Assembly (NCBI GenBank): GCA_902800795.1
Contig: CADCFQ010000003.1
Location: forward strand, 1 to 64,000
DNA: 64,000 nucleotides
Reading direction: 5' to 3'
Source of the DNA: an uncultured Ruminococcus sp.
Lineage (GTDB): Bacteria; Bacillota; Clostridia; Oscillospirales; Ruminococcaceae
Positions 10,618 through 24,884 of this stretch are shown here, piece after piece (position 1 is the first letter of the stretch; every line of letters starts with the position of its first letter). Both the position numbers and the translations under genes were made by a program. The notes below the pieces were generated by a model. It saw only the letters and a list, made by a program, of their open reading frames with translations, had not been told where the DNA came from and made no database searches.

Positions 10618-11337
10618 TCAGTTTGGCACATACATTTGTCTGTAAGGGTTTTTGCTGTCAGGATACACCACAGTGAAGGGTGAATCCATGATCTTCTGCT
10701 GATCCATTCCAAAGTATTCACAGAAATGTCTGATAAAGTGCTCGATCTCAAGGAAGTCCTCAAGGGTGGCAGGACGTGTGTGTACCTGGCTCGGGAAGAT
10801 GATATCCTTGCAGTCGGAGCGCAGGAACATCTTTCCGCCGTGCATACCTGTTGTGGGGAAGTTGCCCACGATAGGTCTGTCGCTGTCTTCAAGGCCGAGA
10901 ACGATGATCGTTCCGCCTGCCTGGTACTCTCCCAGGAAGCTTCCTGCCTTGCCGCCGATGATAAGGGCCGGCTGCTTCTGCTTATAGGCCTTCATGTGGA
11001 TGCCTGCACGGTAGCCTGCGTTGCCCTGGACATAGATATGTCCGCCTCTCATCGCATAGCCGACAGCGTCGCCCACGTTTCCGTGGATAACTATCGTTCC
11101 GTCGTTCATCGTGTCACCCACAGCGTCCTGGGCGTTGCCCATGACCTCTATCTTTGCGCCGTTGAGATAAGCACCCAGTGCATTCCCCGGGATGCCGCTC
11201 ACGGTCACTGTCTTGTCAGAGATACCTGCTGCCAGAAAGCGCTGGCCCAGACAGTTGGTCACTGTGCAGTTGCCTCTGCTCTGGCGAAGGACCTCATTGA
11301 GATCACGAAAATCCAGACCCGTTGCGTTTATATCCAT
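10618..11337 (-). CDS. Glutamate synthase GXGXG (alpha-subunit C-terminal) domain protein
   Basis: The 239-residue protein corresponds to the C-terminal beta-helix domain of the glutamate synthase large subunit, here as a separate polypeptide. It shows the repeated G-x-x-G-x-x-x-G pattern (PGNALGAYLNGAKIEVMGNA, QDAVGDTMNDGTIVIHGNVG, DAVGYAMRGGHIYVQGNAGY). In the fused enzyme this domain holds the glutaminase and synthase domains together around the ammonia tunnel. Its ATG overlaps the stop of the oxidoreductase gene by one base. It is the last of the five genes in the operon, which ends close to the metF terminator. Confidence 0.9.
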   Translation of the reverse strand: MDINATGLDFRDLNEVLRQSRGNCTVTNCLGQRFLAAGISDKTVTVSGIPGNALGAYLNGAKIEVMGNAQDAVGDTMNDGTIVIHGNVGDAVGYAMRGGHIYVQGNAGYRAGIHMKAYKQKQPALIIGGKAGSFLGEYQAGGTIIVLGLEDSDRPIVGNFPTTGMHGGKMFLRSDCKDIIFPSQVHTRPATLEDFLEIEHFIRHFCEYFGMDQQKIMDSPFTVVYPDSKNPYRQMYVPN

Positions 11338-12578
11338 CAGACTGCACCTCCCAGCATTTTGTGTCTTGCATCCGGCATGAACATCGCCAGCGTTGCCGAC
11401 TCTTTGAGTTTATCTGTGTCGAGATCCTTAAGATCTGTCTTTTCACGGACAAGCCTTGTATATACTCCGGCTCCCGTAACATCACCGATGATGATGTAGC
11501 CTGTGAGCCTGTTGTCCTTGATGTAAAGGCGCTTGATGCCGTCCTCGGTCTTGCCGCCGGCTATCTCGCCTTCGCCCTTCTCAAAATAGCTTCCGGCGCT
11601 CACGCAGTGGAGCCCGAAAAAGCCTATGGAGTTCATCGGTATAGCATCGGTGATGCTATTTTTGCCGCCTGCCATATTCACACCTGCGCAAAAGCCCTGC
11701 ATATAAGCATTGGGCAGGATAGCCAGCACCCTGTTTGCGCCTATGGAGCTGTCAAAGCCCTCGGTGCAGTCGCCTGCGGCATAGGTGTTCTCTGCTGTGG
11801 TCTTCATCTGTGTGTCAACGATGATACCTCTGTTGACTTCAGCCCCGGCATCGGATGCCAGAGAGGTGTTTGCCCTTACTCCCACCGCAAGGACCAGGAT
11901 GTCGAATTCGACCTCCTTGCCGCTCTTCATATAGGCTTTGTTCTTATCAAACTTTACCGCAGTGTCGGCCAGCATAAAGCTTATGCCGTTTTTCTCAAGG
12001 TGCTTCTGCATAACTGCTGCGCACTCACTGTCGAGGATACTGGAGAGCACCCTGTCCGCAAGGTCGCAGACAGTGACGCAAGCCACTCTCTCCTTTATTC
12101 CCTCGGCACATTTAAGGCCTATAAGGCCTGCTCCAACGATAAGCACACGGCTCTTCTTTGTCAGAGCCTTTTCAAGCGCAAGGCTGTCGTCAAGAGTCAT
12201 AAAGGTAAACTTCCTTTCCACCTTGTCAAGTCCCTCGAAAGGAGGAACGAACGGAGCCGAGCCTGCTGCTATGCACACCTTTTCAAAGGTCTCTGTACTG
12301 CCGTCGGAAAGAGAGATAGTTCTCTTTTTCACATCCAGCTTCCCGGCCTTTGCAAATCTCAGCGCTGCGCCGTTTTTCTCATAAAAGTCCTCGGGACGGT
12401 AATTCATTCTTTTAAGGTCTGTCTTGCCCTCAAGGTAATAAGAGATGAGCGGCCTTGAATATACCTTGTGCTTCTCCTCGGAAATAATGGTTATATCGCC
12501 CGTTTTGTCGGTGCTCCTTATCCCCTCGATGCAGCCTGCTGCTGCAACACCGTTTCCGATGATGACATACTTGCTCAT
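11337..12578 (-). CDS. FAD/NAD(P)-dependent pyridine nucleotide-disulfide-type oxidoreductase
   Basis: The 413-residue protein has an N-terminal FAD-binding Rossmann motif (YVIIGNGVAAAG), SRPLISYYLEGKTDL, a second dinucleotide site (VLIVGAGLIGLKCAEG) and a C-terminal FAD contact (YAAGDCTEG). This is the NirB/rubredoxin-reductase-like branch of the family. It lacks a redox CxxxxC near the N terminus, so it is an electron-transfer reductase, not a disulfide reductase. It overlaps the upstream ferredoxin gene by 4 nt (ATGA). Its likely job is passing electrons from NAD(P)H, through the Fe-S protein, to the glutamate synthase core, replacing the usual GltD subunit. Confidence 0.88.
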   Translation of the reverse strand: MSKYVIIGNGVAAAGCIEGIRSTDKTGDITIISEEKHKVYSRPLISYYLEGKTDLKRMNYRPEDFYEKNGAALRFAKAGKLDVKKRTISLSDGSTETFEKVCIAAGSAPFVPPFEGLDKVERKFTFMTLDDSLALEKALTKKSRVLIVGAGLIGLKCAEGIKERVACVTVCDLADRVLSSILDSECAAVMQKHLEKNGISFMLADTAVKFDKNKAYMKSGKEVEFDILVLAVGVRANTSLASDAGAEVNRGIIVDTQMKTTAENTYAAGDCTEGFDSSIGANRVLAILPNAYMQGFCAGVNMAGGKNSITDAIPMNSIGFFGLHCVSAGSYFEKGEGEIAGGKTEDGIKRLYIKDNRLTGYIIIGDVTGAGVYTRLVREKTDLKDLDTDKLKESATLAMFMPDARHKMLGGAV

Positions 12579-13018
12579 TTGCGCTCTCCCTGCCTTTCCT
12601 CATAAACTATCGCATTGTTCGGGCAGCCCTTTACGCAGGCAGGCTCGCCGCAGCTGTTTGCAAGACAGAGCTCACATTTCTGTGCGGCTCCCTCGGGGCC
12701 GGGCCTTACGGCACCGTAAGGACATACCAGAACACAGGTTAGACAGCCAACACATTTGCTCCTGTCGATCTTGACAGCTCCGTCCTCGATACTGATAGCG
12801 CCTGCTATACAGCTCTTTACGCAAAGAGGATCCTTGCAGTGGCGGCAGGACACCGCATAGGTGATGCCGTCGGACTCCTCTATATGTACTCTCGGATAGA
12901 TTTTCTTGTTCTTTAGAGCCTTTGCCATATTGTCAAGGCCCGAATTAGCAAAAGCACAGTTATACTCGCAGAGGTGACAGCCAAGGCACCACTCTTCGTT
13001 TACATATACTCTTTTCAT
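12575..13018 (-). CDS. Multi-cluster 4Fe-4S ferredoxin-type electron transfer protein
   Basis: The 147-residue protein belongs to the DMSO-reductase-chain-B/HycB-like group. Cysteine clusters are CLGCHLCEYNC (residues 11-21), CRHCKDPLCVKSC, CVGCLTCVLVCP and CELCLANSCGEPACVKGCP, enough for four 4Fe-4S clusters. It lies between the FMN-containing synthase subunit and the flavin reductase and so is probably the electron wire between them. It has no signal peptide and acts in the cytoplasm. Confidence 0.9.
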   Translation of the reverse strand: MKRVYVNEEWCLGCHLCEYNCAFANSGLDNMAKALKNKKIYPRVHIEESDGITYAVSCRHCKDPLCVKSCIAGAISIEDGAVKIDRSKCVGCLTCVLVCPYGAVRPGPEGAAQKCELCLANSCGEPACVKGCPNNAIVYEERQGERK

Positions 13019-13036
13019 TCTCGGCTTCCCTCCTGA

Positions 13037-14542
13037 TCATTCTCCGGCATGGGAGATCCCAAGGATCCCAAGCTCCCTGTCGGTAAGGCCTACTCCTCTG
13101 AGCATCAGCCTGTTTCCTCTGAGGCTCTCTATCGAGTTGATTCCCATTGCACCCATGAGCTCCTTGATCTCATGTCTCCATGCGTTCATAAGGTTCACAA
13201 GACGTTTAGAGCCGATATCGGGATTGAGCCTCTTTACAAGGTCGGGTCTCTGGGTGGCTATGCCCCAGTTGCACTTGCCGCTCTGGCAGGTCCGGCAAAG
13301 GTGACAGCCAAGCGCCAGCAGAGCCGCAGTTGCCACATAGACAGCGTCGGCGCCGAGAGCCACAGCCTTTACAACGTCTGCTGCCGAACGGACACTTCCC
13401 CCGACCACCAGAGATACGTTATTTCTTATGCCCTCGTCCCTGAGTCTCTGATCCACAGATGCCAGAGCCAGCTCTATCGGGATACCCACATTGTCTCTTA
13501 TCCTTGTGGGAGCTGCTCCCGTGCCGCCTCTGAAACCGTCGATAGCGATGATGTCAGCGCCGCTTCTTGCGATACCGCTGGCAATAGCTGCTATATTGTG
13601 TACCGCTGCTACCTTTACGATAACGGGCTTTTTATAGTCAGTAGCCTCTTTGAGAGAGTATACCAGCTGTCTGAGGTCCTCGATAGAATAGATATCATGG
13701 TGAGGCGCAGGCGAGATAGCGTCCGAGCCCTCGGGGATCATTCTTGTGCGGGAGATGTCTCCGACTATCTTTGCTCCCGGAAGATGTCCGCCTATACCGG
13801 GCTTTGCGCCCTGGCCCATTTTTATCTCCACCGCAGCCGCAGCCTCGAGATAGTTCTTGTGAACTCCGAATCTTCCGGATGCCACCTGGACGATAGTGTT
13901 CTCACCGTAGCAGTAGAAGTCCTCGTGGAGTCCGCCCTCACCTGTGTTATAGCAGATGCCAAGCTCTGTTGCCGCCCTTGCAAGGGATGCGTGAGCGTTA
14001 TAGCTGATAGAACCGTAGCTCATTGCAGAGAACATTACCGGCATCGAAAGCTCGACCTGGGGAGGCATCTGGGTTATAAGCTCCCCTGTGGAACGGCGAA
14101 GCACCTTTTCGGGCTTCTTTCCAAGGAACACCTTGGTCTCCATAGGTTCACGCAGCGGATCTATAGGCGGGTTGGTTACCTGGGATGCGTTTATTAGGAT
14201 CTTGTCCCAGTAAACAGGCAGGGGCTTGGGGTTACCCATTGACGAGAGAAGAACTCCGCCGCTGTTGGCCTGCTTGTATATCTCTTTTATTGTCTGGTCT
14301 TCCCAGTTTGCGTTCTCTCTCAGGCGGCAGTCGTTCTTGACTATCTTCAGTGCGTGAGTGGGGCACAGCGAAACGCAGCGCTGGCAGTTTACACACTTTG
14401 CCTCGTCCGAGATCATGATCCCAAGCTCGGGGTCAAAGGCATGGACTTCATTTGCACACTGTCTTTCACAGACACGGCAGCTTATGCAGCGGTCATTATT
14501 TCTGACCACTTCATATTCCGGAACTATATAATGATCTATCAT
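13037..14542 (-). CDS. gltB: Glutamate synthase FMN-binding (central) domain with N-terminal ferredoxin
   Basis: The 501-residue protein is the archaeal/clostridial-type synthase core. It starts with two 4Fe-4S motifs (CISCRVCERQC, CVNCQRCVSLCP). A TIM barrel follows with FMN and 2-oxoglutarate site features (MSYGSISYNAHASLARAA, NTGEGG, KMGQGAKPGIGGHLPG, IDGFRGGTGAAP, VGGSVRSAADVVKAVALGADA), and the family's 3Fe-4S cysteines lie in CHLCRTCQSGKCNWG. It aminates 2-oxoglutarate to glutamate with ammonia released from glutamine. Its ATG overlaps the preceding stop by one base, so it is probably translated in step with the glutaminase subunit. Confidence 0.93.
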   Translation of the reverse strand: MIDHYIVPEYEVVRNNDRCISCRVCERQCANEVHAFDPELGIMISDEAKCVNCQRCVSLCPTHALKIVKNDCRLRENANWEDQTIKEIYKQANSGGVLLSSMGNPKPLPVYWDKILINASQVTNPPIDPLREPMETKVFLGKKPEKVLRRSTGELITQMPPQVELSMPVMFSAMSYGSISYNAHASLARAATELGICYNTGEGGLHEDFYCYGENTIVQVASGRFGVHKNYLEAAAAVEIKMGQGAKPGIGGHLPGAKIVGDISRTRMIPEGSDAISPAPHHDIYSIEDLRQLVYSLKEATDYKKPVIVKVAAVHNIAAIASGIARSGADIIAIDGFRGGTGAAPTRIRDNVGIPIELALASVDQRLRDEGIRNNVSLVVGGSVRSAADVVKAVALGADAVYVATAALLALGCHLCRTCQSGKCNWGIATQRPDLVKRLNPDIGSKRLVNLMNAWRHEIKELMGAMGINSIESLRGNRLMLRGVGLTDRELGILGISHAGE

Positions 14543-15636
14543 CAGTATTTACCCTCCTTAACACGGACTATAACAGGTTCTCCGCCGCTGGGCGCATAAA
14601 GGTTGCACACATCAGGCTCCATAGCCCTTATGGCTGCCTCTTCGCTGGCAATAAACACTCTGTCGTCCTTTTCGGCCGTTATCATCGAACGAAGCTTCAG
14701 TCTGTCGTTCAGAGCCATAAGGCCGCCGTCCCAGCCGAACACTATCGAGAAGGGACCGGTGATAAGAAGATTTGAAAAGACAGTTCTGAGATATGTAAGC
14801 TTTTCCTTTTGCTTCTCGGGCATCTGGTCTATCGTGCTCCAGAAGGGCGCCGCAATAACAGAGGCTACCTCTTCCAGCGTAAGCTTCTGGACTCTCAGCA
14901 GATAGTCGATGATGTATGTGATGACCTCTGTGTCGGTCTGGAGAGTACATTTGTAGCCGAACATCTCGATAAAGCGGCGGTTCGCATCATAGGATGAGAT
15001 CTCACCGTTGTGGACTACCGAGTAATCCAGCAGTGAGAACGGGTGAGCGCCTCCCCACCAGCCGGGGGTATTTGTGGGATAACGTCCGTGCGCTGTCCAG
15101 GAATAACCCTCGTATTCTTCCAGCCTGTAGAATATCCCTACATCCTCGGGGAAGCCGACCGCCTTGAAGCAGCCCATGTTTTTTCCGCTGGAGAAAACAT
15201 AAGCACCCTTGAGCTGGGTGTTTATCCTGACTACTGTCCTTACAACGAACTCGTTCTCATCCACCTGCTCGGATGCGAGCATGGATTTGAGCGGAGCCAC
15301 AAAATAACGGTAAATGATAGGCTCGTCTGTGATCTGGGGTATCTTTCTTGTGGGTATCAACTCTCCCTTTACTATCTCAAACCTCTCTTTGAGAAGCGCT
15401 TCGCATTCCTTTCTGGTGGAGCGGTGGTCAAAGAAAATGTGAAAAGCAAAGAGGTCTTTATACTCGGGATAAATGCCGTAAGCCGCAAAACCGCCGCCAA
15501 GTCCGTTGGAACGGTCGTGCATGGGTCTCATAGCTTCTGAGATAAGGTTTCCCCTGATCCCCTTTCCCTCTTTCGAGATGACTGCCGCTATCGCACACCC
15601 CGAAGGTATCCTTATCTCGCCTTCTTTTTTCATCAT
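14542..15636 (-). CDS. Class II glutamine amidotransferase subunit of split glutamate synthase
   Basis: The 364-residue protein is the glutaminase half of the enzyme. The start chosen is the ATG at 15636, 7 nt after AAAGGA; 15633 is also possible. The catalytic Cys of class II amidotransferases must become N-terminal. The best candidate is the Cys in RIPSGCAIAAVISKEGKG, about 15 residues in, so a short propeptide would have to be removed, as in large GltB enzymes. Other family signatures are WTAHGRYPTNTPGWWGGAHP and SVVHNGEISSY. It is the first gene of the glutamate synthase operon. Confidence 0.9.
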   Translation of the reverse strand: MMKKEGEIRIPSGCAIAAVISKEGKGIRGNLISEAMRPMHDRSNGLGGGFAAYGIYPEYKDLFAFHIFFDHRSTRKECEALLKERFEIVKGELIPTRKIPQITDEPIIYRYFVAPLKSMLASEQVDENEFVVRTVVRINTQLKGAYVFSSGKNMGCFKAVGFPEDVGIFYRLEEYEGYSWTAHGRYPTNTPGWWGGAHPFSLLDYSVVHNGEISSYDANRRFIEMFGYKCTLQTDTEVITYIIDYLLRVQKLTLEEVASVIAAPFWSTIDQMPEKQKEKLTYLRTVFSNLLITGPFSIVFGWDGGLMALNDRLKLRSMITAEKDDRVFIASEEAAIRAMEPDVCNLYAPSGGEPVIVRVKEGKY

Positions 15637-15672
15637 CAACTCATCCTTTCCTGTCAGATCTTCTCCGTGAAC

Positions 15673-15712
15673 AAAAAAAGGCGCCACTCAGCCTGTCTGC
15701 TGAATGAACGCC
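15673..15712 (-). terminator. Terminator-like hairpin in the glutamate synthase leader (possible attenuator)
   Basis: On the minus strand GGCG..CATTCAGC pairs with GCTGAGTG.CGCC around an AGACAG loop and is followed by TTTTTTT. It lies between the promoter and the first gene of the operon, so most transcripts would stop here unless read-through is allowed. An in-frame ATG AGC AAA GGC begins just before the stem and could encode a leader peptide. No known riboswitch aptamer fits in the roughly 87-nt leader. Confidence 0.75.
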
Positions 15713-16040: not shown

Positions 16041-19000
16041 TTAGCGGACTTGTTCGCCGTTGAGGATGAACTGGGCGCTGCCGTCGATGAGTTCTATATC
16101 CTCGGGGAGGGCGAAGCAGTCCTTTTTGATGTTGTTGTTTACGGAGGACTTGAGGTCACAGTGGATCAGGGTCGTGTGCTGATCTGTGTTCATTCCGCCG
16201 ATAGAAAGGGCCTTTTCGCCGGAGGCTGTGAGCTTGACCAGCGAGGAATCCACTTCAAAATCCGTCCTGCCTTCAAGGGCTCCTATGCCTGTGGCAGAAG
16301 CTCCGTTTATCGCAAGTATAGCGCTCGAAGTATCTATCCGTGTATAGGACTTAGCTCCGCTTACGGTGCCTATGCCGGCGATAGCCGTGCCGTCGCCCGA
16401 AAGGCGGATGCCGCTCTTGGAGACAGTTACCTTTGTGCTGCCCTCCAGCGAACCTATGCAGACAGCCCTGTCAGCATTGACGTCCGCCGTGAGGTTGCAG
16501 GAATTGACGGTGACCTCGGCATCACCCGATATCGAGCCTATGCCCACAGCATCAAGACCGTTGGCATCAAGGATGTACTGGCCGGCATTGAGCTCTATCC
16601 TTCCGCCCATTCCCGAGCCTATGCAGACGCCGTTTGCACCGTGGCTCTTGATATCCACTGTGCCGTCCTGCTGGAAGATAAGTTCTCCTGCGGCTTCCGT
16701 CGGCCTGTTGCCTATGCCGTAGTAGTCAGAAGAGTAAAGATCCATTCTTATGGTGCCGTCGCCCTCAAGAGTAAGGCTTGCAGAAGGCGGTACCCGTATA
16801 CCGGAATTGACCAGCTTGTTCTCGCCGACAAGGACCAGCGTCACATCACAGCCAGCTCCGAGCTCGATGCAGGGGTGCTCTCTGAGGTTTGAAAGATAAG
16901 CGTTTTCAAGGGTTATCCTTCCCGTATACTCGGGCTTAATCTTTATGTGGACATCCGATTCGACACTGGGAGCGCCGTAAATGGTGATATCCTTATAGAT
17001 CATCGTTCCCTGACCCACGATTATCTCGCTGCAGCCGTCCTTGACAAGAGAAGCAAGAGAAACACGGTTGGTCCTTCCTGCAATATAGCTTCGCTCGCCT
17101 GCGCCCTCGGAAAACTGTTTATGATACTCCCTTATCTCGTCTCTTATCTTCGGATCTATCTCACGGACAAGCTCTGGCGACGGTCTGCCGGTATAATAGC
17201 CCTGGATAAGGTCAGCCCCGAGGAAGATAACGGTCCTCAGCTCGTCAGAGGTCTCAATGCCCTCGGCAAGGGCAAGTATGCCGTTATCGTGGCAGAAGCC
17301 TATTATCTCCTTGACAAAATGCTGCTTCTGCGGCTTGTCGGAGATATCACTCAGAAGCGCTCTGTCAATCTTTACGATATTGGGCATATACCTTAGCAGG
17401 TTATTTACATTTGAATAGCCTGTGCCGTAGTCATCGACCGCTATCTTGACATTGTGCTTTCCGAGCATCTTTTTCAGCCTATTGAGGTCTTCATCGCCCA
17501 TCTCGGCTTCCTCTGTCAGCTCAACAACTATCATATCTGCCATTTTGTCAAAGCTGGTCTCAACAGTTCTCATATCATCCTCGGCAAGATTAACGCCGGG
17601 TATGCTGTTTATAAATATCTTTGCCTTGCCTATCTCATCCTGGTTGTCCTCGACAAAGCGCAGCACATTAAGAAACGTTGCCCTCTCAACGTCCACCAGG
17701 CGGTTCTGCATATCGGCATACTTTATGATAGTCAGCGGCGGCACCTTTCTGTCGGTGTCCGAGCGCATCAGTGCCTCATAGGAGAACACACCGCCGTCAA
17801 CGGTATTGACTATCGGCTGGAAATGATAAACGAACAGGTTCTCATCAAGTATCTTTCCTACGAGAGTATACTCCTCCCTCTCATCCTCGGAAAGGCTCTC
17901 ATAGGCTGCGGTCATAGCCGCAAACTTGTTTGTGCGCAGCCTGTTCATCTGCTCCTGGATGTTCTGGACAGCACAGAAGCGCCTGAGCCCCTCAAAGCCA
18001 CGGGAGACCGCAGCTATCCACTTGCGGTAGATCTCGTCATAGCTGCACGGCTTGTCATATTCCACGACAGCGTAGCCGAAGCAGTTGTTCTCGAAGAAAA
18101 CAGGCGTGAAGAACAAAGCCCTGGGAAGGAACTGATCCTCATTCATAAGCGGCAGCAGCTGCGAGCGCTCGAACACGGTCTCCGAGCCTGCTATGCCCTC
18201 CATCCTGTCACGGTTATATCTTACAGCGTGTACCATCCTGTCGGTGTAGCCGTCATTGGCAAGGCGCATCTCCGTCGTCTTGTCGATGTATTTCCACGGC
18301 TCGCACAGGCAAAGGTGGAAGCTCTGTGCATTCTTTATCTCGAAGGCATAGGAATAGACCGTTGCCAGAAAGCCCGAAAGATCGGTCTGTGAGAACAGAT
18401 CCTCGGCCATGGTGTTGTTCACCGAGTCGAAGCCCTCTTCGGATATCGGGGTGCCCCATTCATCACGCTTGAGGGTGAAGGTAGGTATAGTTATATCCTT
18501 GCAGCCGCAGGTCTCGCCTATGACCAGTGACGGCCGTGAAGAAAAAGGCTTGGGCGTCCTGCCTGCCATCATATCGCACACATATTCCACCGAATAGCTG
18601 CCGAATTCCCTGGCAGGGATAAGGGACGAGGTTATCAGCTTAGGCGAGGTCTGACCCTCAAAGGTGGAGTCATAGCTGACGACCGCCACGTCCTCGGGTA
18701 TCCTGATGCCTCTTTCCTCCAGCCCCTTGCAAAGGCCGATAGCCATAGCGTCGTTGGCACACACAACAGCCTGGGGAAGGTCTCCGTTTGAAACCATCTC
18801 GTCGGCACAGACCTCACCGCTGTTATACCAGAAGTCACCGTAGATGACTCTGTTCTCGGGCAAAGTGAGCCCGTGTTTTTCCATAGCTGTCCTTACAGCC
18901 TCAAGGCGCTGGACAGAATGTTTGTGCCATTTCTTTCCCGAAAGAAACGCTATATCCGTATAGCCATGCACCTCTATCAGATGAGAAACAAGCTCCATAA

Positions 19001-19361
19001 TGGATTCTGTGCTGTCGGTGAAAACAGAGGGGAAATACTTGCTGTCCTTCTCTACCACAAGCACAGTCTTGTCAAAGGACTCATGGAGCATCTCTTCCAG
19101 CTCTGCGCCGCCGTCGGCAGTCTGGATGGTGTCCTCAAGGATGACCGCAGCATCAAAACGGCAGGGCTCGAAAAGCCTGAAAATGTTTTTCTCGCCCTTC
19201 TCACGCTCATCTGTATTATGGTATTTATGGTACATCGAAAACACACATACGTCCATATCGTTGACGAATGCGCTCTCGATAAAGCCTTCGATAAAATTGC
19301 TCTGGTAGCTCTCGTCTGCCTGTCCGACAAACAGAGCCAGTCTTTTTCTTTTACTGCTCAT
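16041..19361 (-). CDS. Periplasmic-binding-like sensor / EAL phosphodiesterase / beta-helix fusion protein
   Basis: The 1106-residue protein has no signal peptide or membrane segment and should be cytoplasmic. Residues about 5-285 resemble the sugar-binding domain of LacI-type repressors (ALFVGQADESYQSNFIEGF; DLPQAVVCANDAMAIGLCKG) but without the DNA-binding domain. A GAF-like middle follows. Residues about 498-735 form an EAL domain with all main catalytic positions: EAL motif (YEALMRS), Asn in FINSIPG, Glu in VVELTEE, DD in VDDYGTGYS, Lys in VKIDR, Glu in LAEGIET and QGYY. It should hydrolyse c-di-GMP. The C-terminal third (about 770-1106) is a repetitive parallel beta-helix (NGASATGIGALEGRTDFEVD and similar). 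The ATG at 19361 follows GGTGATAAC; a TTG at 19397 is less likely. The gene is monocistronic. Confidence 0.87.
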   Translation of the reverse strand: MSSKRKRLALFVGQADESYQSNFIEGFIESAFVNDMDVCVFSMYHKYHNTDEREKGEKNIFRLFEPCRFDAAVILEDTIQTADGGAELEEMLHESFDKTVLVVEKDSKYFPSVFTDSTESIMELVSHLIEVHGYTDIAFLSGKKWHKHSVQRLEAVRTAMEKHGLTLPENRVIYGDFWYNSGEVCADEMVSNGDLPQAVVCANDAMAIGLCKGLEERGIRIPEDVAVVSYDSTFEGQTSPKLITSSLIPAREFGSYSVEYVCDMMAGRTPKPFSSRPSLVIGETCGCKDITIPTFTLKRDEWGTPISEEGFDSVNNTMAEDLFSQTDLSGFLATVYSYAFEIKNAQSFHLCLCEPWKYIDKTTEMRLANDGYTDRMVHAVRYNRDRMEGIAGSETVFERSQLLPLMNEDQFLPRALFFTPVFFENNCFGYAVVEYDKPCSYDEIYRKWIAAVSRGFEGLRRFCAVQNIQEQMNRLRTNKFAAMTAAYESLSEDEREEYTLVGKILDENLFVYHFQPIVNTVDGGVFSYEALMRSDTDRKVPPLTIIKYADMQNRLVDVERATFLNVLRFVEDNQDEIGKAKIFINSIPGVNLAEDDMRTVETSFDKMADMIVVELTEEAEMGDEDLNRLKKMLGKHNVKIAVDDYGTGYSNVNNLLRYMPNIVKIDRALLSDISDKPQKQHFVKEIIGFCHDNGILALAEGIETSDELRTVIFLGADLIQGYYTGRPSPELVREIDPKIRDEIREYHKQFSEGAGERSYIAGRTNRVSLASLVKDGCSEIIVGQGTMIYKDITIYGAPSVESDVHIKIKPEYTGRITLENAYLSNLREHPCIELGAGCDVTLVLVGENKLVNSGIRVPPSASLTLEGDGTIRMDLYSSDYYGIGNRPTEAAGELIFQQDGTVDIKSHGANGVCIGSGMGGRIELNAGQYILDANGLDAVGIGSISGDAEVTVNSCNLTADVNADRAVCIGSLEGSTKVTVSKSGIRLSGDGTAIAGIGTVSGAKSYTRIDTSSAILAINGASATGIGALEGRTDFEVDSSLVKLTASGEKALSIGGMNTDQHTTLIHCDLKSSVNNNIKKDCFALPEDIELIDGSAQFILNGEQVR

Positions 19362-19433: not shown

Positions 19434-19462
19434 ATTATAGCACATCTCTTATGAAATTTCAA
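19434..19462 (-). promoter_or_regulatory. Sigma-A promoter of the EAL-domain gene
   Basis: TTGAAA (19457-19462) and TATAAT (19434-19439) are 17 nt apart on the minus strand, giving a leader of about 65 nt. Confidence 0.75.
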
Positions 19463-19578: not shown

Positions 19579-21765
19579 CTATTCTTCATCTATGCGCTGT
19601 CTTTTTACAAGCTCGGCAAACCTGCCGTTCTTCTCTATCAGCTCGTCATAGGTCCCGTCCTCAACGATGGCGCCGCCCTCCAGGACAAGTATCCTGTCGC
19701 AGTGACGGATCGTCGAGAGCCTGTGGGCTATGACGATCCTTGTGCAGCCCATTTTGTCCAGTGCGTCCGAGACCTGCTTCTGAGTCTTGTTATCCAGTGC
19801 GCTGGTAGCCTCGTCGAACATGAGTATCGAAGGCTTGGGAGCCACCGCTCTGGCTATCATAAGGCGCTGGCGCTGTCCGCCGGAAACGCCGCCCTGTCCC
19901 TCGGAGATGACTGTGTGCATACCCATCGGCATATCTCTTATGTCGTCCGCTATCCCGGCTATCTCGGCTGCTTCCCACGCCTGGTCAAGCGTCAGGTCAG
20001 GAGCCGTGATAACGATGTTTGAGTATATATCTCCCTGGAAAAGACCGCCGCTTTGCATAACAGAACCTATCTTGCGCCGAAGCGACCCAAGATCCAGCCT
20101 GTTTATATTCTTGCCGTCATAGTAGACAGCGCCCCTCTCGGGCTTTTCAAATCCCAGAAGCAGCCTCATCAGCGTGCTCTTTCCGCAGCCGGTTCGTCCG
20201 ACTATCGCCACATATTCTCCGGACTTTATCTTCAGAGAAAGGTCCTTGACTATGTAGGGCATATTCTCCGAATATCTGAAGGTCACGTTTGAGAGCTCCA
20301 CCGAGCCGGATAGCCTGGTAACTATCTCTCTGCCGTCGGAGACCTCGGGCTCCGCCTTTAAAAAGGGCTCTGCCATTTCAAGGATAGGACGGATGCTCGC
20401 TATCGAGAGCGCCATTCCCGAAAGGGCGGAAAAAGCGCCCATAACAGCGCCGAAGGCTGCGGTGAAGCCGAAATAGTCTGACTGGGTCACATTGCTCTCG
20501 ACGGCTATAAAGTAGATTATGATATTCGATATCAGAGTTATGGATGTTGCTATAACGCCGTTTATCTTTATGAACGTAGGAGGATTGTAGTTGAGCTCCG
20601 CTTCTCTTGAATAGGTGTTGAGCCACCTTGCGAACACTCTCTTCTCGGCGCCTGCCAGCTTTATCTTCTGAACGCCGGATATCATGGCATAGGTCATACC
20701 GGACTCCTTGGCGCCCAGCTCCAGCAGCTTCTTTGTTATCTTCATCTGGACCAGCGAAGACACTGCACCGAACACCACCGTTACAAGGATGATGAGCAGC
20801 GACGGCACCACCAGAGCAGGAGCAAAGCTGAATATCTGGGTTATATATACCAGTGACACCAAAGACCCCAGACCCGTTGACAGGACAAGGTCGAGCATAA
20901 GGTTGCAAAGCTGTCCCACAGACGAGGAACGGCTGTTTAGCTCACCGGCGCTGAATTTGCGAAAAAAGCTTGCCGGCAGCGACAGTATCCTCATCATCAT
21001 AGATGCTTCTATCGCCACCGAGGTCTTTCCCGAGATGCGGTTCATAAGCAGCCCCTTTATGGAGCTTATAAGCTGGGATGACACCGCCACGCACAAAAAG
21101 CACACGGCAACGGAAATAAGCATAGCTTTCTTTCCGCTGAGCATAACAGGCCCTGTTATCGCAGCCGTCAGCTTAGTCATTATCATGCCCACCAGCGTTA
21201 CCGCCAGGGTAGCTATAATGATAGTCACCGCATCGCTGACCGAGATACACCGCTTCATATAAAGCAGAAGGTCGGGTATGCCTATCTTCCTCATAGGCAG
21301 CGGCCTGTAAAAGCAAAGTGCCTCTGTATCGAACTGCTCCATCACCTTGGCGGTTATCTTCACCCTTTTGCCGGTGGCCTTGTCCTTATAGTAGTAGCCC
21401 GAGATCTGGTCCGGCAGCAGAGCCGCAGGCTGTCCTGTTTCCTTGAAATAAGCCATAACAGGGCCGTAGGCATCCTTATACCAGCCCTCTTCAAGGATGA
21501 TGCGCCGCTTCATAAGCCCGTGAGGCCTGAGGCAGTAATCAAGCTGCTCCTCGTGGGTGTTGAGAGAAAGCGGTATTTCTATGGGCTTGAAGTGATAGTA
21601 TTTAAGTATCTCGTCTATCGCCTGCGCCGTTATTATGCGCTCGTCGCTTATCTTCTCGGCAGATCTCTCGCCAAGTATAGCTCCGGCAGCACGGAAGAAC
21701 GAGTCCTCGAACAGCTGTTGGTCAAGGTCACGCCTCTGCTCGATCTGTTGTTCAAACCAACCCAA
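19579..21765 (-). CDS. NHLM-type bacteriocin exporter, permease/ATPase subunit without peptidase
   Basis: The 728-residue ABC transporter half belongs to the non-peptidase partner of nitrile hydratase leader microcin (NHLM) exporters. An N-terminal soluble region (about 1-165) precedes six membrane helices (about 170-460) and an ATPase domain. The ATPase has Walker A GRTGCGKST, signature VSGGQRQR and Walker B ILMFDEATSALD. It should pair with the peptidase-bearing half encoded just upstream (14-nt gap) to form a heterodimer. It is last in a four-gene operon. The cargo peptide gene is not in the window. Confidence 0.88.
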   Translation of the reverse strand: MGWFEQQIEQRRDLDQQLFEDSFFRAAGAILGERSAEKISDERIITAQAIDEILKYYHFKPIEIPLSLNTHEEQLDYCLRPHGLMKRRIILEEGWYKDAYGPVMAYFKETGQPAALLPDQISGYYYKDKATGKRVKITAKVMEQFDTEALCFYRPLPMRKIGIPDLLLYMKRCISVSDAVTIIIATLAVTLVGMIMTKLTAAITGPVMLSGKKAMLISVAVCFLCVAVSSQLISSIKGLLMNRISGKTSVAIEASMMMRILSLPASFFRKFSAGELNSRSSSVGQLCNLMLDLVLSTGLGSLVSLVYITQIFSFAPALVVPSLLIILVTVVFGAVSSLVQMKITKKLLELGAKESGMTYAMISGVQKIKLAGAEKRVFARWLNTYSREAELNYNPPTFIKINGVIATSITLISNIIIYFIAVESNVTQSDYFGFTAAFGAVMGAFSALSGMALSIASIRPILEMAEPFLKAEPEVSDGREIVTRLSGSVELSNVTFRYSENMPYIVKDLSLKIKSGEYVAIVGRTGCGKSTLMRLLLGFEKPERGAVYYDGKNINRLDLGSLRRKIGSVMQSGGLFQGDIYSNIVITAPDLTLDQAWEAAEIAGIADDIRDMPMGMHTVISEGQGGVSGGQRQRLMIARAVAPKPSILMFDEATSALDNKTQKQVSDALDKMGCTRIVIAHRLSTIRHCDRILVLEGGAIVEDGTYDELIEKNGRFAELVKRQRIDEE

Positions 21766-21779
21766 GAACTCTCACTCCC

Positions 21780-23960
21780 TTACTCATTGGTCACAAGCTC
21801 TGAATACGCTCCGCCGAGCTTCATAAGCTCGCTGTGCGTTCCTCTCTCCACCACTGTGCCGTGCTCGAGAACTATTATCTCATCACAGTCACGGATGCTT
21901 GAGAGCCTGTGTGCTATAACGATACAGGTTATACCTCTGTCCGTTATCGCCTTCACAACGTCCTCTTCGGTCTTTGCGTCCAGTGCGCTGGTCGCCTCGT
22001 CCAGTATGATAATGGACGGATCCTGGGAAAGGACCCTTGCTATCTCCAGTCTCTGGCGCTGGCCGCCGGAAAGGTTGCGGCCGCCTTCTGTGAGCATATA
22101 CTCATAGCCGCCGTCACGCTGCATTATATCGTTGTGTATCTGTGCGTCACGGGCCGCAAGGATCATCTCAAAGTCCTGTATCGACTCGTCCCACATTTTT
22201 ATATTGTTGGCCACCGTGTCTTCAAAGATAGTTATATCCTGATCCACGACAGCCAGAGAACCTGTCATAACGTCACGGTCAAACTCCGTTCTCGGCTTTC
22301 CGTCAAAGAGTATCTCGCCTTCCCAGGGTTCATAAAGCCCGGATATCAGCTTTGACAGAGTGGACTTTCCACTGCCGGAAGCTCCCACAAAAGCGATACG
22401 GCTCCCGGGCTTCACCGACATGGAAAAATCCTTGATAAGCGGCTCGGCAAGTCTTGAATAGCCGAAGGTTATATTCTTCATCTCGATATTTCCGCCAAGC
22501 TTTCCGAGCCCCTGCTCGCCGGCTTCGACTCTTATCTCAACGTTCTTGTCCGAGGGATATTCCATAACGTCCTCGACACGCTCCATCTGCGTGCGCATCT
22601 CCTGGATAGTCTGTCCTGCTGTGACAAGCGTCATCGCAGGGCTCATGAACTGGTCAAGAAAATGCTGGAACATAAGCACCGCTCCCAGTGTCAGGTCGCC
22701 GTTCATGGCAAACCACACACCCAGTATCAGCACCGCATAGCTTGCGGCGGTCGATAAAAACGTTGGTATAGCTCCGAGTATCTGGTTGGTCTTCTCTATC
22801 TTTACGTTCTGGGAATTGACCGAGGCCTGATAGCCCGACCATTTCTGGAAAAAGCCGTCCTCGGCGCCGCTGGCCTTTATGGTCTCTATCATCTCGATGC
22901 CCGCCACCGTGGTGGAAGAAAGCTTTGCGCTGTCTCTCATCTGCACACGGGTGGTGTTTATCCTCTTTTTCGAGATGACCCTTGACAGGAACACGTTCAT
23001 CACCATTACCGACAGACCGATAGCTGTCAGCAGAACGCTCTTGTTGAGCATGAACACAAGGTATACCACCAGCATTATCGAGTTTATCAGAAGCGGCGAA
23101 AGGGTGTTCACCAGGGTCTCGGCAATGGAAGCGTTGGTGACCTGACGGGACTGTATATCTCCGGCCATTCGCTGGGAGAAAAACTCCATAGGCATCTTGA
23201 GCACCTTCCACATATAGGTGGAACTGCCCACCAGCGCCATTTTTCCGCTTATCCTTAGCGAGTATATCGCCTGGGCCCAGGCCACGATCATCTGTATCAG
23301 CGCCAGCCCCGACAGTATACCTATGAAGGGCAGCAGCCAGTCATCGTTTTTATGGGTCAGGAGCCTGTCCATGAACACCTGGGTCATAACGGGGTTTATT
23401 ATCCCGAAAAGGCTCGTTATCACTGTTGTGAGCATAACAAAAACAGTTGCAGCCCCGGCGCCCCTGAGACGCTTCCTGGCAAAGTCAACTGTGCTCTTTC
23501 TTTTTCCGTCGGCAACGAAATCCTCCGAAGGCTCGAACTCCAGCGAGACACCTGTGAAAGCCTTGTCAAACTCCTCGGCGTCCACCCTGACAAGACCCCT
23601 TGCAGGGTCATTTATCATCGCATATTTTCCCTTGAAGCCGTTCAGGACCACAAAGTGGTTAAAGTTCCAGTGGATTATACAGGGAAAGCTTCCGTTCGAC
23701 TTCAGTGTTTCGGGCGTTCTCCTGTAAGCTTTGGCATTCAGGCCATAATTCTCAGCTGCGAGATATACATTTTTAGCATTCGAGCCGTCTCTCGAAACTC
23801 CGCAGTCTGCCCTGACCTGTTCGAGAGGCACCCACTTGCCGTAATATGCCAGCACCATAGCCAGCGAAGCCGCACCGCATTCGAGGGCTTCGAGCTGCAT
23901 GATAACGGGCACCTTGGCGGCGCCCTTTGTTACCGGCTGTCTGATCTTATTATTCTTCAT
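21780..23960 (-). CDS. Peptidase-containing ABC transporter (C39 peptidase, NHLM type)
   Basis: The 726-residue protein begins with a C39 cysteine peptidase (about 15-140): Cys28 in LEALECGAASLAMV, His in IIHWNFNHFVVL and Asp in INDPARG. This domain cuts double-glycine leaders while the peptide is exported. Six membrane helices (about 165-450) and an ATPase domain follow (Walker A GASGSGKST, signature LSGGQRQR, Walker B IIILDEATSALD). It would form the export channel with the neighbouring ABC half and the small HlyD-like protein. The gap to the adaptor gene is 9 nt. Confidence 0.93.
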   Translation of the reverse strand: MKNNKIRQPVTKGAAKVPVIMQLEALECGAASLAMVLAYYGKWVPLEQVRADCGVSRDGSNAKNVYLAAENYGLNAKAYRRTPETLKSNGSFPCIIHWNFNHFVVLNGFKGKYAMINDPARGLVRVDAEEFDKAFTGVSLEFEPSEDFVADGKRKSTVDFARKRLRGAGAATVFVMLTTVITSLFGIINPVMTQVFMDRLLTHKNDDWLLPFIGILSGLALIQMIVAWAQAIYSLRISGKMALVGSSTYMWKVLKMPMEFFSQRMAGDIQSRQVTNASIAETLVNTLSPLLINSIMLVVYLVFMLNKSVLLTAIGLSVMVMNVFLSRVISKKRINTTRVQMRDSAKLSSTTVAGIEMIETIKASGAEDGFFQKWSGYQASVNSQNVKIEKTNQILGAIPTFLSTAASYAVLILGVWFAMNGDLTLGAVLMFQHFLDQFMSPAMTLVTAGQTIQEMRTQMERVEDVMEYPSDKNVEIRVEAGEQGLGKLGGNIEMKNITFGYSRLAEPLIKDFSMSVKPGSRIAFVGASGSGKSTLSKLISGLYEPWEGEILFDGKPRTEFDRDVMTGSLAVVDQDITIFEDTVANNIKMWDESIQDFEMILAARDAQIHNDIMQRDGGYEYMLTEGGRNLSGGQRQRLEIARVLSQDPSIIILDEATSALDAKTEEDVVKAITDRGITCIVIAHRLSSIRDCDEIIVLEHGTVVERGTHSELMKLGGAYSELVTNE

Positions 23961-23969
23961 TTAAATCCT

Positions 23970-24392
23970 CTATTTCAACAGGAACGATATGGGAGAAATG
24001 CTCTCGGTGACTATCTGTCCGTCATAATTGCCGTCCGGCATATCCGTCTTTATAAGTGCGGAAGGCCTGCCGTAATAGTCCTTGCGCACCTCGGTAACAG
24101 GATATTCCTTGCCTGCGATAAGGACCGTCATACCCTTTTCAAGATCGTCCGTACTGTTGCTGATAGGCATAACAACTGCGGTACCGTTCTCTACTGTCAC
24201 AGATGCGTCCACAACGGTATCCAGCTTGCCCACGCTTGCCCACACCAGGAGCCCGGCCAGCAGGAACACCACAGCTCCGAGAATGAGCCACACACCGGGA
24301 TTAGTGACTTTGAAATAATCGGTCAGCTGTTCGGGCGAGGAGATCCGGTCTAAAGATTTCTGCCTGAATATCTTGGATTTAGTTTCAGCCAT
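23970..24392 (-). CDS. Short NHLM-type HlyD-like secretion protein
   Basis: The 140-residue protein has the typical NHLM adaptor start (FRQKSLDRISSPEQLTDYFK, then VTNPGVWLI), one membrane helix (about 34-55) and a small extracytoplasmic beta domain ending in ISPISFLLK. Full-length NHLM secretion proteins are roughly twice as long, with coiled-coil and lipoyl-like parts that are missing here. The reading frame is intact and well spaced (9 nt to the transporter gene), so this is a compact form, not an obvious pseudogene. In a Gram-positive cell with no outer membrane a short adaptor may suffice. Confidence 0.78.
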   Translation of the reverse strand: MAETKSKIFRQKSLDRISSPEQLTDYFKVTNPGVWLILGAVVFLLAGLLVWASVGKLDTVVDASVTVENGTAVVMPISNSTDDLEKGMTVLIAGKEYPVTEVRKDYYGRPSALIKTDMPDGNYDGQIVTESISPISFLLK

Positions 24393-24403
24393 ATTGTCCT
24401 TCC

Positions 24404-24814
24404 TTATCTGATATTCTTCTTTATCGTAAGAATATTCTTTCCGTCCTTATACTCATAGCTAACATCGTCCATGGTCTTCTTCACCATGAACACGCCAAGG
24501 CCGCCGATCTGGCGCTTGCCGGCAGGCAGGCTGATATCGGGGTCGGGCTTTGCCAGAGGGTCAAAGGGCTTGCCGCCGTCCATAAAGCTCATAATAACGC
24601 TTACAGGCTCGTCCGTCATCTCTACGCAGATGCTTGCTTCACCTATCTCGGGAGCATAGGCATAGTGTGCGATATTGACGAATATCTCCTCGACAGCCAC
24701 CAGTATCTGGGTCTTTATCCTGGAAGAACAGCCCTTGGCATCAAGCTGCTGCGAAACGAACTCCAGGACTGTATCAAGGTTTTCGATCTCTGCTCTGATA
24801 ATCAATTCTTTCAT
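24404..24814 (-). CDS. RsbW/SpoIIAB-like anti-sigma ATPase (HATPase_c)
   Basis: The 136-residue protein starts at the ATG 7 nt after AAAGGAG. It carries the GHKL ATPase motifs of serine-kinase anti-sigma factors: N-box VAVEEIFVNIAHYAY, G1 DGGKPFDPLAKPD, and G2 GGLGVFMVKKTMDDVSYEY. Proteins of this group bind a sigma factor or other partner and phosphorylate a STAS antagonist. Here it is the first gene of the peptide exporter operon, 11 nt before the adaptor gene, and no STAS protein or sigma factor is adjacent. The nearest STAS gene is at 32000. A link between partner switching and peptide export is inferred from position. Confidence 0.85.
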   Translation of the reverse strand: MKELIIRAEIENLDTVLEFVSQQLDAKGCSSRIKTQILVAVEEIFVNIAHYAYAPEIGEASICVEMTDEPVSVIMSFMDGGKPFDPLAKPDPDISLPAGKRQIGGLGVFMVKKTMDDVSYEYKDGKNILTIKKNIR

Positions 24815-24855
24815 AAGCTGCTCCTTTTCATAAACAAGATGCTCCAATCCCTTAA

Positions 24856-24884
24856 AGTATATCATTTTTCGCCCCGAATGTCAA
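24856..24884 (-). promoter_or_regulatory. Sigma-A promoter of the ATPase-NHLM exporter operon
   Basis: TTGACA (24879-24884) and TATACT (24856-24861) have 17-nt spacing on the minus strand, so the four genes share one strong promoter. Confidence 0.85.

Follow-up and report, generated by a model that had tools for sequence, protein, structure and literature searches.

Why an apparently cytosolic, predicted phosphodiesterase of cyclic di-GMP (c-di-GMP) should end in a beta-helix of the surface-protein type is the question raised by a gene on a 64,000-nucleotide stretch of contig CADCFQ010000003.1 from an uncultured Ruminococcus sp. (hereafter the window). An earlier reading of the letters alone (the original prediction) described the product as one protein linking a LacI-like sensor, an EAL domain and a beta-helix. 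Here, the EAL domain and the beta-helix are described as a cassette with exchangeable N-termini, in which the helix shares the history of the EAL domain and is under purifying selection, and the possible roles of the helix are weighed.

One reading frame for sensor, EAL domain and beta-helix

The frame starts with an ATG at 19361, its stop codon ends at 16041, and it contains no internal stop or frameshift (Table 1). A frameshift assigning the beta-helix to a separate gene, which the original prediction named as a refutation, is therefore ruled out; an origin by assembly fusion or frameshift was likewise rejected, given the single frame and the recurrence of the fusion in other genomes (see below). 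Pfam returned Peripla_BP_3 (PF13377, residues 126-285, 94.4 bits, E = 1e-26) and EAL (PF00563, residues 506-727, 154.8 bits against a cut-off of 31.3, E = 3.1e-45) on the 1106-aa protein, with no match beyond residue 740, that is, in the last 366 residues. The general EAL and LacI-type matches in an NCBIfam scan were all below cut-off. No signal peptide or transmembrane helix was found by a crude 19-residue Kyte-Doolittle scan, which is not a dedicated signal-peptide predictor (highest window mean 1.16); this agrees with the predicted lack of an export signal, and the protein is apparently soluble and cytosolic.

The EAL domain has ten positions (E529, N585, E614, E617, D643, D644, K664, E700, E703 and Q720) that align with those of the phosphodiesterase BlrP1 and that we take to be the metal-binding and catalytic residues. 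All ten are invariant in 73/73 full-length proteins and also in 17/17 cassette proteins of differing architectures. The key residues are thus present as originally stated, and this conservation strongly predicts a catalytically active c-di-GMP phosphodiesterase.

In phmmer searches the N-terminal domain resembled the effector domains of CcpA, RbsR and an ancestral LacI, and its fold matched CcpA in VIA-align (Z 22.4, 2.9 Å over 265 residues). The protein begins directly in the first beta-strand of this effector domain, and neither Pfam nor phmmer matched a helix-turn-helix (HTH) DNA-binding domain anywhere in the chain, confirming a LacI-like sensor that lacks one. Among the 73 full-length proteins, R152, H148, Y179 and D204 were invariant and W178 reached a frequency of 0.99; near-invariant candidates for the ligand pocket are R152, H146, H148, D176-Y179, N203 and D204. 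R152 aligns with an Arg that we assume to bind the effector in LacI proteins. The ligand is probably a small metabolite such as a sugar or a sugar derivative. Autoinducer-2 (AI-2) is not favoured, because the cited part of PMC9540692 gives the AI-2 receptors of rumen bacteria as mainly dCache, with LuxP/LsrB-type receptors in few genomes.

Between sensor and EAL domain lies a GAF-like segment that the original prediction, which also did not state the minus-strand location, had overlooked. Of 13 orthologues, 5 matched GAF_2 weakly in this region (about residues 296-480; best E = 0.017). A PDB profile search with this region gave no match, and naming it on that basis was rejected. In the full-length model, a helix at residues 443-473 closes the segment and leads into the EAL domain.

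The protein resembles the EAL phosphodiesterases BlrP1 and RocR in its EAL fold, its complete metal and catalytic residues and the placement of a sensor N-terminal to EAL, but differs from them by a C-terminal 350-aa beta-helix and a cytosolic LacI-type and GAF-like sensor. It also resembles the Periplas_BP c-di-GMP enzymes, in which an HTH-less LacI-type domain is joined to a c-di-GMP enzyme; its own genome also encodes LacI-type proteins with GGDEF (L004-L007). Unlike in those enzymes, the LacI-type domain is here joined to EAL and a beta-helix. In the cited part of a review, the LacI-like Periplas_BP domain of c-di-GMP proteins is counted among putative sensors, is said to possibly bind solutes including sugars and is given no role (PMC8846402), and the window protein offers a soluble, testable case for such sensors.

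An EAL-helix cassette with exchangeable N-termini

The full-length protein was found in 14 of 29 same-genus genomes (its own and 28 others) at 51-89% identity to the window protein, and in two further ones (G018 and G011) it was cut by contig ends. In a scan of named genomes the best 80 loci were kept, 42-61% identical in the best segment. The full-length fusion was present at 72 of them (Ruminococcus, Lachnospiraceae, Eubacterium), and eight were excluded from this set because residues 20-1060 were not covered within the length limits. By NCBI names, the 80 loci belong to Oscillospiraceae (31), Lachnospiraceae (31), Eubacteriaceae (12) or to no family (6). Record titles gave rumen or ruminant foregut for 55 of the 80; an organ was named for 26, and the isolate codes RUG and RUI were assumed by us to denote rumen. 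Absence of the fusion from relatives, the second refutation named beforehand, is ruled out by this recurrence.

The original prediction treated sensor, EAL and helix as the unit. The order does recur, but helix and EAL also occur together under other N-termini, and the unit is better described as an EAL-helix cassette with exchangeable N-termini. The window protein has a LacI and GAF-like N-terminus; other cassette proteins have a short one of about 90 residues (L083), LacI with GGDEF (L084, L078), or GGDEF with (L034, L089) or without (L088) a membrane-helix-like start.

A profile of EAL plus helix gave a match spanning both parts in at least 44 of 247 family genomes, with three such matches in the own genome; among the matches listed, which reach down to about E = 1e-33, 54 span EAL and helix and only 2 lie wholly within the helix. 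In a phylum sample of 398 genomes, spanning matches occurred in at least three (the own genome, G115 and G381), all of the same class, and EAL-only matches in at least two others. These counts are lower bounds, since the searches scored the best few candidates per genome (five for the family, three for the phylum). With a helix-only profile at E ≤ 1e-10, matches came from 15 of the 391 genomes searched at class level and from 20 of the 394 at order level; in G466, G613, G1181 and G1232 the match covers part of the helix (E 1e-14 to 1e-16). In the own genome the helix is found on 3 of 12 EAL genes, alongside 23 GGDEF matches. The EAL-helix combination appears to be previously undescribed, as no description of it was found in open-licence literature, where little was found on c-di-GMP in Ruminococcus or rumen fibre degraders either. 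It marks out a C-terminal module that is widespread among the c-di-GMP phosphodiesterases of Ruminococcus, Lachnospiraceae and their relatives.

Trees of the EAL domain and of the helix contained the same main groups and the same split. On one side fell the LacI-GAF type together with the short and the f66-family LacI-GGDEF types, and on the other the GGDEF type and the remaining LacI-GGDEF types. The short type was placed inside or next to the LacI type, as would be expected had its sensor been lost. Two LacI-GGDEF-EAL proteins of 901 aa (L070 and L081) end just after EAL, and their EAL domains group with those of helix-bearing relatives (Shimodaira-Hasegawa-like approximate likelihood ratio test, SH-aLRT, 99), which suggests that the helix was lost in them; a gain is also possible. 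The trees were quick searches with SH-aLRT support only, and omitted L009, L013, L018, L019, L023 and L033 (near copies or partial), the second open reading frame of L101 and the secreted L068 and L069. A locus was removed before comparison when its last 200 residues were already represented by an earlier one. Alignment A6 comprised 13 of the 16 rows of A1, and A3 and A4 comprised 16 of the 17 rows of A2.

Two side observations concern the cassette. At 34.8 kb on contig C12 of the own genome, 159 stand-alone residues of EAL-type helix (L041:1471-1950) are apparently a helix-only remnant. Single TGA, TAA or TAG codons inside EAL-helix matches in several family genomes (e.g. G194:C27, G228:C306 and G199:C19) could be pseudogenes, assembly errors or recoding.

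Fold and conservation of the beta-helix

A fold search with the full-length model gave EAL and LacI folds only, among the matches listed; the helix was therefore modelled alone. AlphaFold predicted the isolated C-terminal 350 aa with a mean predicted local distance difference test (pLDDT) of 94.4 and a predicted template-modelling score (pTM) of 0.92, and in the full-length model most blocks beyond about residue 810 had a pLDDT of 87-96. In VIA-align the model of the isolated helix matched right-handed beta-helices with Z 17-25.5 over 217-311 residues, the top matches being Vag8 (Z 25.5, 3.6 Å over 311 residues), the Lactobacillus reuteri SRRP (Z 22.2), UpaB (Z 21.3) and Cthe_2159 (Z 21.3); with Foldseek alone there was no match at E ≤ 1e-3. 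On the strength of the prediction and the VIA comparison, we assign residues 757-1106 with high confidence to a right-handed beta-helix, close to the roughly 340 residues first proposed.

The proposal that the helix is of a surface-protein type gained support from a profile match (E = 2.4e-16) to the repeats of a 2397-aa adhesin-like protein with a signal-peptide-like start, encoded at L080 in another family of the same class. This match indicates a common origin of the cytosolic helix and surface-type proteins. With the secreted beta-helix surface proteins (that of L080 and SRRP/Vag8-like ones) the window helix shares the fold and, with the L080 repeats, sequence homology; it differs in lacking a signal peptide, containing Cys (median 7 per helix, as fits the cytosol) and forming a single fixed-length copy on an EAL domain.

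Helix length was 342-361 residues in 57/57 near-complete matches, and the span of residues 759-1101 was 329-345 residues in 73 LacI-type proteins. Comparison of the window gene with its 89% identical orthologue L009 gave ratios of nonsynonymous to synonymous substitution (dN/dS) of 0.12 for LacI, 0.08 for the GAF-like segment, 0.052 for EAL and 0.072 for the helix. The helix is under purifying selection; a surface-type beta-helix that keeps a constant length inside the cell is unusual. Only Gly, Ile, Val or Pro occupy the positions that do not vary between cassette types, and most of these positions recur, by eye, in the secreted L080 repeats. With no polar residue invariant, no conserved ligand site was seen in the helix across cassette types. 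Set against beta-helix polysaccharide lyases and epimerases, which have conserved catalytic residues in the groove, the helix shows polar residues near its N-half (R766, D791, E819 and N848) that are type-specific.

Membership of the helix in the Cthe_2159 family (PF14262) was not supported. The fold is similar, both being right-handed beta-helices (Z 21.3, 2.5 Å over 217 residues), but there was no significant sequence or profile match: PF14262 matched 0 of 16 helix sequences, and profile-profile comparison with Ruminococcus Cthe_2159-family lipoproteins gave a probability of 7.9%. The best PDB sequence match was 4peu (E = 0.023). Separate PF14262 genes are present in 28 of the 29 genus genomes, and those read are lipoprotein-like; 19 of 20 PF14262 loci were used in one analysis and 12 of 20 in another.

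c-di-GMP in the own genome

The own genome contains two c-di-GMP-I riboswitches and no PilZ, and PilZ was rejected as an output. The gene behind one riboswitch encodes a BspA-type leucine-rich repeat (LRR) protein and that behind the other a right-handed beta-helix protein; each of the two proteins carries fn3 and begins with a signal-peptide-like stretch. As the riboswitches stand ahead of secreted surface proteins, c-di-GMP probably controls surface proteins in this genome. The C-terminal regions of the two riboswitch-led proteins (L192:565-3297 and L193:490-3096) are very similar. Near the riboswitch-led LRR gene on contig C4, a Cas13d effector (L192:3866-6733, PADLOC E = 4e-290) adjoins a protein with a weak WCX match.

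Possible roles of the beta-helix

We give roughly an even chance to a ligand-gated cytosolic phosphodiesterase in which the helix serves as a rigid module for oligomerisation or docking. The cleft of the LacI-type domain would bind a small metabolite (probably a sugar or sugar derivative), and the change would be relayed by way of the GAF-like segment and the helix that closes it to a putative EAL dimer, altering c-di-GMP hydrolysis either upwards, as in the original prediction, or downwards. The beta-helix, as a fixed-length and presumably rigid rod joined to EAL by a conserved connector (G762 and R766 are invariant in 73/73), would set the oligomeric state or dock the enzyme to a partner, so that EAL would act on a particular c-di-GMP pool. 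Lower c-di-GMP would then change the expression of the riboswitch-controlled BspA-LRR and secreted beta-helix proteins. Bactofilins likewise form a cytosolic beta-helix scaffold; they differ in having a short polymerising helix and no enzyme in the chain.

Several points weigh against this reading. Among the loci examined, neither a partner protein nor a gene neighbour present throughout was found, a GGDEF gene lying within 350 bp in only 11 of 72. Mean top frequency in the helix was 0.44 for the C-half against 0.61 for the N-half, and a less conserved C-half is not expected of a docking face conserved along the whole rod. The existence of some close EAL relatives without the helix (L070, L081) indicates that it is dispensable for that EAL type. 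The full-length model (mean pLDDT 76.5, pTM 0.44) does not settle domain arrangement and dimerisation.

A second sensor is possible, with well under an even chance: the helix would be a cytosolic carbohydrate-binding rod for imported oligosaccharides (cello-, xylo- or pectic), and the enzyme would integrate two sugar signals. Carbohydrate-binding or -active beta-helices are indeed among the fold neighbours (the L. reuteri SRRP and Cthe_2159), the cited part of PMC6712302 describes Cthe_2159 proteins as beta-helices binding cellulose and polygalacturonic acid, and rumen and gut bacteria hold the bulk of the homologues. Against it stand the lack of any polar helix residue invariant across cassette types, the low profile probability with Cthe_2159-family lipoproteins and the fact that the fold is common to many proteins of other function.

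A passive helix is unlikely: in this reading an adhesin-type domain became fused on a single occasion, folds well and does no more than stabilise EAL, a structural hitchhiker without a specific part in regulation. The conserved positions do look like fold determinants common to secreted homologues, and helix-less relatives exist, but fixed length in 57/57 proteins, a dN/dS of 0.07 and persistence beside N-termini of at least five kinds speak against a passive domain. An EAL domain acting as a c-di-GMP receptor rather than an enzyme, with c-di-GMP binding controlling the helix or sensor, is very improbable: the known EAL receptors FimX and LapD are among the fold neighbours, but every catalytic residue is invariant in 73/73 proteins, and to our knowledge degenerate EAL receptors do not keep all of them.

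As a speculation that we also rate as unlikely, the EAL-helix enzymes may form a signalling family of their own in gut and rumen Clostridia. The rod of a surface adhesin would have moved to the cytosol, where it would either bind plant oligosaccharides taken up by the cell, mirroring inside what the adhesins do outside, or gather the phosphodiesterase into ordered clusters. If so, c-di-GMP turnover would be coupled directly to the cell's food or attachment.

Transcription and neighbouring genes

The gene is probably transcribed alone, as it is preceded by a promoter-like site and parted from the upstream ATP-binding cassette (ABC) exporter by a hairpin and T-run, seen by eye and not listed by the scanner. 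The promoter scan found 6 promoter-like sites in the region against 3.4 expected by chance.

Table 1. Coordinates of the sensor-EAL-helix gene, its parts and its neighbours in the window
Feature	Position	Strand	Basis
Whole coding sequence	16041..19361	minus	1106 aa, single frame
LacI/GalR-type ligand-binding domain without HTH (residues 1-290)	18492..19361	minus	Pfam, phmmer, VIA, pocket residues
GAF-like segment (residues 296-480)	17922..18476	minus	weak GAF_2 match, model helix
EAL phosphodiesterase domain (predicted; residues 506-727)	17181..17846	minus	Pfam, conservation, BlrP1 alignment
Helix/strand connector from EAL to beta-helix (residues 736-775)	17037..17156	minus	full-length model, conservation
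Right-handed beta-helix, near-constant length (residues 757-1106)	16044..17093	minus	prediction, VIA, length survey
Sigma-70-like promoter TTGAAA-17-TATAAT, extended -10 TG	19434..19462	minus	consensus scan only
Second ABC transporter	19579-21765	minus	export cluster
ABC transporter with C39 peptidase	21780-23960	minus	export cluster
Short frame without Pfam match	23970-24392	minus	export cluster
HATPase_c_2 protein	24404-24865	minus	export cluster
Glu_synthase part with ferredoxin motifs	13037-14542	minus	split glutamate synthase
Glutamine amidotransferase	14542-15687	minus	split glutamate synthase

A GGDEF gene was in view at 20 of 72 loci, and the 11 within 350 bp were on the same strand (profile search, raw counts). 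At 6 of the 80 loci the adjacent GGDEF protein has a LacI-like N-terminus. The adjacent GGDEF and EAL-helix genes would form an opposing pair in those relatives. PF14262 genes were in view at 2 of 80 named loci. A fixed partnership with a neighbouring gene was rejected on these counts. The LacI-EAL-helix gene does have a Cthe_2159-family gene a short way upstream in two Ruminococcus genomes (G021:C50:4041-5429 and G017:C77:14333-16039).

In the window, a bacteriocin-type export cluster lies upstream on the minus strand (19579-24865). On the other side, also on the minus strand (10618-15687), a glutamate synthase is divided among separate genes, including further iron-sulphur, oxidoreductase and GltB-like frames, and a perfect TTGACA-17-TATAAT stands ahead of this set at 15758-15730.

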